21,837 nt of DNA from a virus. The DNA is taken from the IMG/VR virus record IMGVR_UViG_3300046694_000476, positions 1 through 21,837 of that record; one strand, written 5' to 3'. Below the pieces are notes generated by a model. It was not told the origin of the DNA. It saw only the letters and a list, made by a program, of their open reading frames with translations, and ran no database searches. Below are positions 15,227 through 21,743 of this stretch, piece by piece. Position 1 is the stretch's first letter. Each line of letters begins with the position of its first letter. The translations under genes were made by a program, and so were the position numbers.

Positions 15227-15355
15227 ATGCAAACCCAACACCTGTCCGCCCAAGAAGCGAACCTACAGCTCTTCAACCGCCTGATGGAACTGATGCAAGT
15301 TGATCACCGCCGGAAAGCCATCGGTAAATCCTCATCAATCAAGGAAGTATCTTGA
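15227..15355 (+). CDS. Small ORF of 42 codons ahead of the methyltransferase
   Basis: Begins ATGCAAACCC and reads MQTQHLSAQEANLQLFNRLM, then a basic stretch (DHRRKAIGKSS) to a TGA at 15353-15355. GAGG lies ten bases before the ATG. Its stop lies inside the TTGAATG that holds both candidate starts of the next overlapping pair, so it could be a coupled leader ORF. The peptide looks helical and plausible but no family is recognised. Confidence 0.5.
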   Translation: MQTQHLSAQEANLQLFNRLMELMQVDHRRKAIGKSSSIKEVS

Positions 15356-16194
15356 ATGAGCTGGCTCTTTTCGCGGGCTCTGGCGGAGGAATACTCGGCG
15401 GCCACCTGCTCGGATGGCGGACCGTGTGCGCCGTTGAGCGTGATGCCTACTCCGCACAAGTTCTGGCGCAACGACAAAACGATGGAGCACTCCCAACTTT
15501 CCCGATTTGGTCTGACGTGTGCAGTTTTGACGGCAGGCCGTGGCGCGGAATTGTTGACGTGGTTTCTGGAGGATTTCCATGCCAGGACATCTCTGTTGCC
15601 GGAAATGGTGCTGGCATCGACGGAGCGCGCTCCGGGCTCTGGCGTCAAATGGCGCGAATCATCAGCGAGGTACGACCTGACGAAGTCTACTTGGAAAACT
15701 CACCTCTGCTTGTGGGAAGAGGACTTGCACTGGTCCTCAGTGAGCTTGCCGAAATGGGGTATGACGCGCAGTGGTGCCTTGTTTCAGCATCCGACGTTGG
15801 AGCGCCCCATCAGCGCGATCGCGTCTGGCTTGTGGCCCACGCCAACGATGTCGGACGGTCCGGGAGGCCCGGGGAATCAGGGGAGGCAAGGCGGATTAAA
15901 CCTGAGAACCAAAGTGGCACGTTCTTGGCCGACGCCAGTCGCGAGCATGGCGAAAGGATCCTCACCGGCTGCACTGACACGCAAGTCAGGGGCAGACCGC
16001 TCGAACGATCGACTCGACCATGCGGTGATGGCTTCCGACGGTGGCCAACTGAACCCGGAATGGGTCGAGTGGCTAATGGGGTGGCCAATCGGGTGGACAG
16101 AATTAAAGCCCTTGGAAATGGGCAAGTTCCGCGAGTGGCAGCAACAGCATTCTGTGAGCTGTCCCGCACAGCCACTCAAGACCATCGGAGATAA
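15352..16194 (+). CDS. DNA cytosine-C5 methyltransferase (Dcm type)
   Basis: A 280-residue C5-cytosine methyltransferase. Motif I LFAGSGGGILGGHLLG (SAM binding, residues 6-21), motif IV GGFPCQDIS (nucleophile C77), motif VI ENSP (E115), motif VIII QRDRVW (154-159) and motif X DRIKALGNGQVPRVAATAF near the C-terminus are all present. The N-terminus fits only if translation starts at the TTG at 15352, which has AAGGAAG five to eight bases upstream. The target-recognition region between motifs VIII and X is short. The whole gene is overlapped in another frame by the ORF at 15356. It probably modifies phage DNA against host restriction. Confidence 0.88.
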   Translation: MNELALFAGSGGGILGGHLLGWRTVCAVERDAYSAQVLAQRQNDGALPTFPIWSDVCSFDGRPWRGIVDVVSGGFPCQDISVAGNGAGIDGARSGLWRQMARIISEVRPDEVYLENSPLLVGRGLALVLSELAEMGYDAQWCLVSASDVGAPHQRDRVWLVAHANDVGRSGRPGESGEARRIKPENQSGTFLADASREHGERILTGCTDTQVRGRPLERSTRPCGDGFRRWPTEPGMGRVANGVANRVDRIKALGNGQVPRVAATAFCELSRTATQDHRR

Positions 16195-16198
16195 CTGA
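15356..16198 (+). CDS. Second 280-residue ORF overlapping the entire methyltransferase gene
   Basis: Starts with ATG four bases after the methyltransferase TTG and stops four bases after it, in a different frame. AGGA lies ten bases upstream. The product looks protein-like: MSWLFSRALAEEYSAATCSD, LSRFGLTCAVLTAGRG, a repeated tryptophan motif (GLWPTPTMSDGPGG at 158-171 and SWPTPVASM at 190-198) and QLNPEWVEWLMGWPIGWT (231-248). I recall these motifs from a family of phage hypothetical proteins and from C-terminal parts of some phage methyltransferases. The stop overlaps the excisionase ATG (TGATG), so the reading frame is coupled to the next gene. Function unknown. Confidence 0.65.
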   Translation: MSWLFSRALAEEYSAATCSDGGPCAPLSVMPTPHKFWRNDKTMEHSQLSRFGLTCAVLTAGRGAELLTWFLEDFHARTSLLPEMVLASTERAPGSGVKWRESSARYDLTKSTWKTHLCLWEEDLHWSSVSLPKWGMTRSGALFQHPTLERPISAIASGLWPTPTMSDGPGGPGNQGRQGGLNLRTKVARSWPTPVASMAKGSSPAALTRKSGADRSNDRLDHAVMASDGGQLNPEWVEWLMGWPIGWTELKPLEMGKFREWQQQHSVSCPAQPLKTIGDN

Positions 16199-16395
16199 TG
16201 AGCCTTCCACGCTGGGTAATGATCAACCGCGCATCCGAACTCACCGGCTACAGCGAAGACGCCATTCGCCACAAGGTGAAGAACGGGACCTGGGCACAAG
16301 GTCGGATCTGGCGAAAAACGCCCGACGGCCGCATCGCAATTAACATGACGGAGTATGACAAGTGGGCCGAGAGCGCACCGCAGGAAGCGGCCTAG
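16198..16395 (+). CDS. Excisionase-like protein
   Basis: A 65-residue winged-helix protein: RWVMINRASELTGYSEDAIRHKVKNGTWAQG, then RIWRKTPDGRIAINMTEYDKW. It is a recognisable phage excisionase type, which bends the attachment DNA and directs integrase toward excision. The ATG has GGAG seven bases upstream and shares one base with the stop of the overlapping ORF. Integrase starts inside its 3' end, as in many xis-int pairs. It would be expressed from the rightward promoter after repressor loss. Confidence 0.82.
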   Translation: MSLPRWVMINRASELTGYSEDAIRHKVKNGTWAQGRIWRKTPDGRIAINMTEYDKWAESAPQEAA

Positions 16396-19163: not shown

Positions 19164-21743
19164 ATGAATAAAGCAATTTCTGACCTATCCTCCCACACCC
19201 CGATGATGCAGCAGTACTGGCGCCTGAAAAACCAGCACCCGGACCAGCTGATGTTCTACCGCATGGGCGACTTCTACGAGATCTTCTATGAGGACGCGAA
19301 GAAGGCCGCCAAGTTGCTGGACATCACCCTGACTGCTCGCGGGCAATCGGCCGGGCAGGCGATTCCGATGTGCGGGATTCCTTACCACGCCGCCGAGGGT
19401 TACCTGGCGAAACTGGTGAAGCTTGGCGAATCGGTGGTGATCTGCGAGCAGGTCGGCGACCCGGCCACCAGCAAAGGGCCGGTGGAGCGGCAGGTCGTGC
19501 GCATCATCACGCCGGGGACGGTGAGTGACGAGGCGCTGCTCGACGAGCGTCGGGACAACCTGATCGCCGCCGTCCTGGGTGATGAACGCCTGTTCGGCCT
19601 GGCGGTGCTCGACATCACCAGCGGCAACTTCAGCGTGCTGGAAATCAAGGGTTGGGAAAACCTGCTGGCGGAACTGGAGCGGGTCAACCCGGTGGAGTTG
19701 CTGATCCCGGATGACTGGCCCAAGGACTTGCCGGCGGAAAAACGCCGTGGTGTGCGTCGCCGTGCGCCGTGGGATTTCGAGCGCGATTCGGCGCTCAAAA
19801 GCCTGTGCCAGCAATTCTCGACTCAGGATCTCAAAGGCTTTGGTTGCGAAAACCTGACCCTGGCGATCGGCGCTGCCGGTTGCCTGCTGGCCTATGCCAA
19901 GGAAACCCAGCGCACCGCCCTGCCCCACCTGCGCAGCCTGCGTCATGAACGCCTGGACGACACCGTGGTGCTCGATGGCGCCAGCCGTCGCAACCTGGAG
20001 CTCGACACCAACCTGGCCGGGGGCCGCGACAATACCCTGCAATCGGTGGTGGACCGTTGCCAGACCGCCATGGGCAGCCGCCTGCTGACCCGCTGGCTGA
20101 ATCGCCCGTTACGGGATTTGACCGTGCTGTTGGCGCGCCAGACCTCGATCACTTGCCTGCTCGACGGTTACCGCTTTGAAAGACTGCAGCCGCAGCTCAA
20201 GGAAATCGGCGACATTGAGCGGATTCTTGCGCGGATCGGCCTGCGCAATGCCCGCCCCCGCGACCTCGCCCGCTTGCGCGACGCCCTCGGCGCACTGCCG
20301 GAACTGCAAGTGGCAATGATGGAGCTCGAAGCCCCGCATCTCCAGCAACTCGCCACCATCACCAGCACCTACCCGGAACTGGCGGCACTGCTGGAAAAAG
20401 CCATCATCGACAACCCGCCCGCGGTCATTCGTGACGGCGGCGTGCTGAAAACCGGCTACGACAGCGAACTCGACGAACTGCAGTCGCTGAGCGAAAACGC
20501 CGGGCAATTCCTGATCGACCTCGAGGCACGGGAAAAGGCCCGCACCGGCCTGTCGCACCTGAAGGTCGGTTACAACCGCATCCACGGTTACTTCATCGAG
20601 CTGCCAAGCAAGCAGGCGGAATCGGCACCGGCCGACTATATTCGCCGCCAGACGCTCAAAGGCGCGGAACGCTTCATTACACCGGAACTCAAGGCGTTCG
20701 AAGACAAGGCACTATCAGCCAAGAGCCGTGCCTTGGCCCGCGAGAAGATGCTGTACGAAGCGCTGCTGGAAGATCTGATCAGCCAGCTGCCACCGCTGCA
20801 GGACACTGCCGGCGCCCTGGCCGAGCTGGATGTATTGAGCAACCTGGCCGAACGCGCGCTGAACCTTGATCTGAACTGCCCGCGCTTCGTCAGCGAGCCG
20901 TGCATGCGCATCACCCAGGGTCGTCACCCGGTGGTCGAACAAGTGCTGACCACGCCGTTCGTGGCCAACGACCTGAGCCTGGACGACAACACCCGCATGC
21001 TGGTGATCACCGGTCCGAACATGGGCGGTAAATCCACCTACATGCGTCAGACCGCCTTGATCGTGCTCCTGGCGCACATTGGCAGCTTCGTGCCGGCAGC
21101 CAGTTGCGAACTGTCGCTGGTCGACCGCATCTTCACCCGGATCGGCTCCAGCGATGACCTGGCCGGCGGGCGTTCGACCTTCATGGTGGAAATGAGCGAA
21201 ACCGCGAACATCCTGCACAACGCCACCGAGCGCAGCCTGGTGCTGATGGACGAAGTCGGGCGCGGCACCAGCACCTTCGACGGTCTGTCCCTGGCATGGG
21301 CGGCGGCCGAGCGCCTGGCGCATCTGCGCGCCTACACGCTATTCGCCACTCACTACTTTGAACTGACCGTCCTGCCGGAAGCCCAGCCGCTGGTGGCCAA
21401 CGTGCACCTCAATGCCACCGAGCACAACGAGCGCATCGTGTTCCTGCACCACGTATTGCCAGGGCCGGCCAGCCAGAGTTACGGCCTGGCCGTGGCACAA
21501 CTGGCAGGCGTACCGACCGAGGTCATTACCCGTGCGCGCGAGCATTTGAGCCGCCTGGAAGACACCGCCCTGCCCCATGAGTCGCCGGCACCTGCCAAGG
21601 GCAAACCGGCTGCTCCACAGCAAAGCGACATGTTTGCCAGCCTGCCGCACCCGGTGCTGGATGACCTGGCCAAGCTCGACCTGGACGACATGACACCACG
21701 TCGTGCTCTAGAAATGCTCTATACACTAAAGACACGGATCTAA
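19164..21743 (+). CDS. mutS: DNA mismatch repair protein MutS
   Basis: An 859-residue MutS that recognises mismatches and small loops and recruits MutL. The mismatch-binding FYE (F37, E39) lies in RMGDFYEIF. Connector, core and clamp domains follow, then the ATPase with Walker [10 protein letters not shown] (617-625), Walker [17 protein letters not shown] (D696, E697) and the THYFEL signature. The C-terminus ends in the helix-turn-helix dimerisation region ([16 protein letters not shown]). Length and sequence are normal for Pseudomonas. The ATG at 19164 is the conserved start, though the ribosome-binding site is weak. It is host DNA next to the prophage; the gene appears intact, so integration has not broken it, although its upstream control region may be altered. 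Confidence 0.98.

Follow-up and report, generated by a model that had tools for sequence, protein, structure and literature searches.

Does a reading frame that lies almost entirely within a phage cytosine methyltransferase gene encode a protein of its own, and what would such a protein contribute? The question arises in a 21,837-nucleotide stretch of viral DNA (the window; positions 1 to 21,837 of IMG/VR record IMGVR_UViG_3300046694_000476), in which two open frames of 280 residues, here called alpha and beta, overlap. A preliminary description of the window had placed them at TTG 15352 to TAA 16194 and at ATG 15356 to TGA 16198, and these coordinates were exact. The features of the locus are collected in Table 1. 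Taken by itself, the open +1 frame of the window is not significant: synonymous-codon permutation gave a mean of 2.0 stops, and zero stops in ~7% of the permutations. The case for beta therefore rests on relatives of the locus. Together with the sequence features described below, they make it highly probable that the overlapping frames encode a real C5 methyltransferase of two subunits and that this arrangement is widely conserved.

Table 1. Positions of the features of the alpha/beta locus in the window
Feature	Positions	Strand	Basis
42-aa ORF in the beta frame, its TGA abutting the beta ATG	15227-15355	+	no Pfam match
AAGGAAG, Shine-Dalgarno-like	15341-15347	+	sequence; upstream of both starts
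TTGAATG double start (TTG, alpha; ATG, beta)	15352-15358	+	NTGAATG conserved in most relatives
Alpha, predicted C5-methyltransferase large (catalytic) domain, motifs I-VIII and X, 280 aa	15352-16194	+	TTG to TAA; PF00145, phrog_363 and M.HhaI matches
Beta, predicted recognition region and motif IX, 280 aa	15356-16198	+	ATG to TGA, +1 frame; phrog_1008; conserved and selected
Alpha motif I, LFAGSGGG	15367-15390	+	translation, conservation
Alpha motif IV, GGFPCQ, catalytic cysteine	15568-15585	+	invariant in A2
Alpha motif VI, ENSP	15694-15705	+	invariant in A2
Alpha motif VIII, QRDRV	15811-15825	+	R155 and R157 invariant
Beta [W/L]PTP region, residues 157-231, proposed target-recognition domain	15824-16048	+	hhalign to single-chain C-terminal part
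Alpha residues 163-230, near-neutral, low-confidence linker	15838-16041	+	omega 0.57-0.82 (alpha), 0.06-0.09 (beta)
Beta motif IX, LNPEWVEWLMGWPIGWT	16049-16099	+	conserved; matches motif IX of single-chain relatives
Alpha motif X, LGNGQVP, residues 254-260	16111-16131	+	conserved

A viral search with beta as the query returned 80 loci (43-81% identity), all with alpha in the same register, and in 79 of them both frames ran through the overlap without an internal stop. Since a beta query could bias the set towards beta, alpha alone was used as the query of a second viral search. Here, 79 of 80 relatives had a +1 frame without a stop before the last ~20 codons. The window and these 80 relatives together contained 3 stops in the +1 frame versus ~308 expected (~3.8 per sequence), a comparison to which we attach no p-value because the relatives are not independent. 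The +2 frame of the same set contained on average 17 stops per sequence (range 11-27). The two viral sets have many contigs in common and, counting the window, amount to 114 distinct alpha sequences; about this number of distinct viral-contig sequences thus have alpha and beta together in the same +1 register. So do 80 loci found in bacterial genomes with a beta profile; these were 29-81% identical, came from several phyla, and in every one alpha overlapped beta in the -1 register. Premature stops in relatives, which the preliminary description had named as a sign against the second frame, were found in a single relative and leave the reading standing. That relative (L005, from the same contig as L099) has a stop at beta codon 119, after which the frame resumes, at ~65% identity. 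In more distant relatives, the beta start lies further downstream. In Klebsiella phage BUCT711 (L179, 1501-1731), just the first 77 residues of beta are matched, at 74% identity; this copy, beside a short annotated methyltransferase, is possibly truncated or recombined.

Selection on each frame was estimated from 43 disjoint sequence pairs, with substitutions classed by their effect per frame and the count restricted to sites whose neighbours were unchanged. The resulting omegas in the overlap, which are simple counts (NN/NS) and not the output of a full likelihood model, were 0.22, 0.20 and 0.14 for beta over alpha residues 5-60, 61-110 and 111-160, 0.06 over residues 161-230 and 0.09 over residues 231-268, with every 95% interval below 0.4 in all regions. 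Alpha was strongly constrained up to residue 160 (0.03-0.07) and over residues 231-268 (0.09), and near neutral over residues 161-230 (0.57 [0.34-0.99]; 0.82 [0.47-1.77]). Beta is under purifying selection along its whole length, most strongly between motifs VIII and IX. In that stretch (residues 161-230), where alpha is near neutral, the coding duty shifts from alpha to beta; over the last part of the overlap, constraint acts on both. Synonymous-site freedom in the methyltransferase frame only, a pattern that would have spoken against beta, was not what we saw: replacement changes are suppressed in the beta frame too.

The case is weakest for the N-terminal half of beta. Over this half, fourfold sites of alpha gave 0.155 versus 0.264 in single-chain or staggered relatives at 90-98% identity, a modest reduction that was smaller at lower identity. 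Permutation of synonymous codons within pairs, a test that mixed regions of unlike variability, singled out residues 231-268 alone. The lack of a clear signal over the N-terminal half in this test, and the openness of the frame in the window alone (p ~0.07), would suit a second frame that arose from codon bias and the conserved motifs of alpha and is not translated. Such a by-product accounts neither for the 3 stops where ~308 were expected, nor for constraint on beta where alpha is near neutral, nor for the homology, described below, of beta to in-frame segments of other enzymes, and we regard it as extremely improbable. Beta is a real gene, conserved and selected, as the preliminary description had supposed and as the open frames and substitution patterns of the relatives attest. 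A simple sign of dual coding is also seen in the alpha genes of staggered actinophage loci (L279-L302), in which third-position GC falls from ~0.8 to ~0.6 on entering the overlap.

What do the two chains resemble? Alpha matches PF00145 (E 5.5e-31), falls in phrog_363 and matches M.HhaI both by sequence and by fold. Motifs I, IV (PCQ), VI (EN) and VIII (QxRxR), which define a C5-cytosine methyltransferase when found in one chain, are all present in alpha, and so is motif X; the five motifs assigned to this frame at the outset were thus all recovered. Motif IX is absent from the alpha translation. The recognition domain and motif IX, which a monomeric enzyme carries on the same chain as motifs I-VIII, both appear to be in the +1 frame. 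In the AF2 model, alpha has a core like that of M.HhaI and M.HaeIII (Foldseek E ~1e-10); residues 176-257 have pLDDT < 50 and are followed by a helix over motif X. The DNA of alpha residues 163-230 also encodes most of the beta recognition region. Lacking motif IX and with a near-neutral recognition stretch, alpha alone is, as judged from its sequence, an incomplete methyltransferase.

Beta falls in phrog_1008 (E 2.8e-28) and matched neither a Pfam family nor a PDB chain in sequence and profile searches. Both WPTP boxes and QLNPEWVEWLMGWPIGWT, noted earlier as non-random, do lie in its translation. The relationships of beta became apparent from mycobacterial prophages prophiFSIL01-1 and McProf, in which a single chain in one frame carries motifs I-VIII, several LPTP boxes, LNPRFSEWMMGWP and GNGVVPQQA. 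Alpha aligned with the N-terminal part of these single-chain enzymes (E 2.9e-38), and a beta profile aligned with their C-terminal part (hhalign E 7.3e-12; 1.3e-20 with more diverse beta rows); phrog_1008, the beta family, matched the same part with E 7e-52. In the single-chain profile, the motif IX segment aligned to M.HhaI 272-307 (RKLHPRECARVMGYPDSY), below significance on its own. Homologues of beta are therefore not confined to the overlap, as they might have been for a spurious frame: homologous segments exist in single-chain and staggered enzymes. Beta thus appears to carry motif IX together with a target-recognition domain, its part in specificity being what we infer from this homology. 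The AF2 model of beta alone was poor (mean pLDDT 53), and a fold for beta is thereby unsupported. A poor model would be expected if beta folds on its partner, and is not evidence that it does.

Since alpha lacks motif IX, beta has both motif IX and [W/L]PTP boxes, and the homologues are single-chain or staggered enzymes, the locus is best read as a split, two-subunit enzyme. In C5 methyltransferases, the large domain comprises motifs I-VIII and X, and the small domain comprises the recognition region and motif IX (PMC3404938). The split in the window would follow this boundary, because alpha has motifs I-VIII and X and beta the recognition region and motif IX. We therefore think it very likely, from motif content and homology, that alpha and beta are the two polypeptides of a single C5-cytosine DNA methyltransferase, encoded in overlapping frames and split between the large and the small domain. 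For the second product, three roles had been suggested in advance: a modulator of the methyltransferase, a separate modification factor, or a replacement for its target-recognition part. The third is the one favoured, by motif IX and by homology at the recognition position. A separate factor (an inhibitor, an activator or a host-interacting protein) overlapping a complete methyltransferase would help to explain why the N-terminal half of beta, ~155 residues for which single-chain enzymes have no counterpart, is nevertheless selected (omega 0.14-0.22). However, alpha is incomplete, beta matches exactly the part that is missing, and an open +1 frame is seen only together with an alpha that lacks motif IX. 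A separate factor is thus quite unlikely.

The two starts lie four bases apart behind one Shine-Dalgarno-like word, AAGGAAG, which precedes both frames as the preliminary description had it. Among 176 distinct relatives, a purine-rich word of this kind lies 5' of the start pair in 149, and ATG, GTG or TTG followed by AATG occurs at the start pair in 150. The TGA within the double start is a stop in the beta frame immediately 5' of the beta ATG, and 162 of the 176 relatives have such a stop. An in-frame stop at this place fixes the longest possible beta start there. In 87 of these 162 relatives, the same stop also ends an upstream ORF of 20 aa or more; in the window, the 42-aa ORF that ends at the TGA possibly allows translational coupling to beta.

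Programmed +1 frameshifting, by which the recognition part would be fused to alpha without any separately started beta, might also be considered, since the beta recognition region is encoded in +1 directly past motif VIII and in some relatives (L176, L332) indels appear to have exchanged the frames. Such a fusion needs neither a beta start nor an N-terminal half. Relatives nevertheless conserve the ATG within NTGAATG and keep the N-terminal frame open and selected; moreover, motif X, encoded past motif IX, is back in the alpha frame. Conservation of the beta start and N-terminal half and the return of motif X to the alpha frame favour separate initiation, and we give frameshifting little credence. 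In the two-subunit reading, the single Shine-Dalgarno sequence would load ribosomes that initiate either at TTG (alpha) or at ATG (beta). Alpha would serve as the large domain: it would bind AdoMet and contribute the catalytic cysteine of PCQ along with motifs I-VIII and X, and its residues 163-230 would mainly link to the motif X segment. The small domain would be beta, with the target-recognition region and motif IX, its N-terminal half being read +1 over motifs I-VIII. The two would presumably assemble, beta picking the sequence and alpha methylating it, and the enzyme may mark or protect phage DNA.

A search with the single-chain enzymes as query yielded 70 loci of several layouts: 11 were single-chain, with motif IX in alpha and no beta; 24 were staggered, with motifs IX and X in a +1 beta; 26 were nested like the window, with motif X in alpha and motif IX in a +1 beta; and 9 were unclassified. 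The +1 frame was closed in all four single-chain genes checked (8-11 stops). In the staggered actinophage pairs, alpha stops soon after motif VIII, and the +1 beta has LPTP, IX and X. The recognition domain of these pairs can therefore lie only in beta. One history that would join these layouts is that the phage branch consists of obligate heterodimers in overlapping frames, large and old, in which a single-chain ancestor lost its recognition part and motif IX to the +1 frame and alpha kept or regained motif X, the staggered pairs being intermediates. Because alpha would read the DNA between motifs VIII and IX only as a linker, this DNA would be free to change the specificity of beta. We judge the chances of this history to be evenly balanced. 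A midpoint-rooted tree of the alpha core, from which a crude motif filter had dropped 35 of the 77 chosen rows, did not separate a single-chain-first from a split-first order. In Mycobacterium phage AlpineSix (L176, 1086-1682), the annotated ORF opens in a frame like that of beta and then follows the alpha frame, much as if an indel had swapped the two. In L332 (from 1501), the alpha and beta frames are swapped mid-gene, which reflects a broken gene or a sequencing error; L333 (from 1501) had the same match figures in the search.

Full-length dual coding had been called rare at the outset, but this layout occurs commonly within one branch of phage C5 methyltransferases, and M.EcoHK31I is a characterised precedent. 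The small subunit of M.EcoHK31I is reportedly encoded in another frame inside the gene for the large subunit. M.EcoHK31I (YGGCCR) has motifs I-VIII and X and a predicted recognition domain in its large subunit, and motif IX only in the small one (PMC3404938). Compared by this described motif distribution, the window is alike in having IX only on the small subunit and I-VIII and X on the large. It differs in that the corresponding region of alpha is near neutral and beta appears to carry the recognition domain, and in that its frames, which lie in a prophage, overlap almost end to end, with starts and stops each 4 bases apart. M.AquI (CYCGRG) consists of an alpha chain with motifs I-VIII and a beta chain with IX-X (PMC3404938). 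As in the window, I-VIII and IX are on different chains; in contrast to the window, where X is in alpha, IX and X are both on the small subunit. That arrangement is found in the 24 staggered relatives, and TelAviv gp6/gp5, Lilbooboo gp32/gp33 and Upyo gp54/gp53 share it, with X also in beta. A further difference from M.AquI is the nearly complete overlap in the window family. The single-chain enzymes of prophiFSIL01-1 and McProf (gp6) have the same I-VIII core, LPTP boxes and motif IX (LNPxFxEWMMGWP) as the window, but with everything in one frame and the +1 frame closed. The ShiLan domain of a phage methylase (PMC11855218) is similar in being an out-of-frame protein concealed within the methylase gene, but it is an inserted homing HNH endonuclease and unrelated to beta. 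A text search among openly licensed papers found no description of the present phage layout. Relative to the precedents, the novelty lies in how widespread the layout is, in an overlap of nearly full length and in the evidence for a recognition domain on beta.

Both phrog_363 and phrog_1008 are labelled 'DNA methyltransferase', and the labels are silent on two subunits in overlapping frames. Both frames are annotated in phage K1ind2 (ORF28/29) and in Paenibacillus phage Shelly ('g55 internal gene'); elsewhere, either alpha only or beta only is annotated. Many phage 'DNA cytosine methyltransferase' annotations would accordingly describe half enzymes that are probably inactive alone and whose target is unreadable from the annotated chain. 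The family offers a widespread and testable case of same-strand dual coding, in which constraint passes between frames along the gene and single-chain and staggered relatives are at hand for comparison. Many natural split C5 methyltransferases would also be of interest as a format for targeted methylation (PMC3404938, PMC3439449). In phage phPA-G (L087, 2001-2729), GenBank annotates beta alone, as a hypothetical protein, and alpha is unannotated.

Coupling of the second frame to an excisionase gene had been proposed as well. The next ATG (16198) does overlap the beta TGA; it opens a 65-aa ORF that has no Pfam match and is only a putative excisionase gene. This ORF (16198-16392) lies between beta and the integrase gene, a position that fits an excisionase role. 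A deoxynucleotide monophosphate kinase gene (PF21448; 12414-12983) belongs to the same early region as the methyltransferase. Past the integrase gene, a mutS-like gene, named from its sequence, occupies 19164-21743, which suggests that the prophage sits beside the mutS gene of its host.
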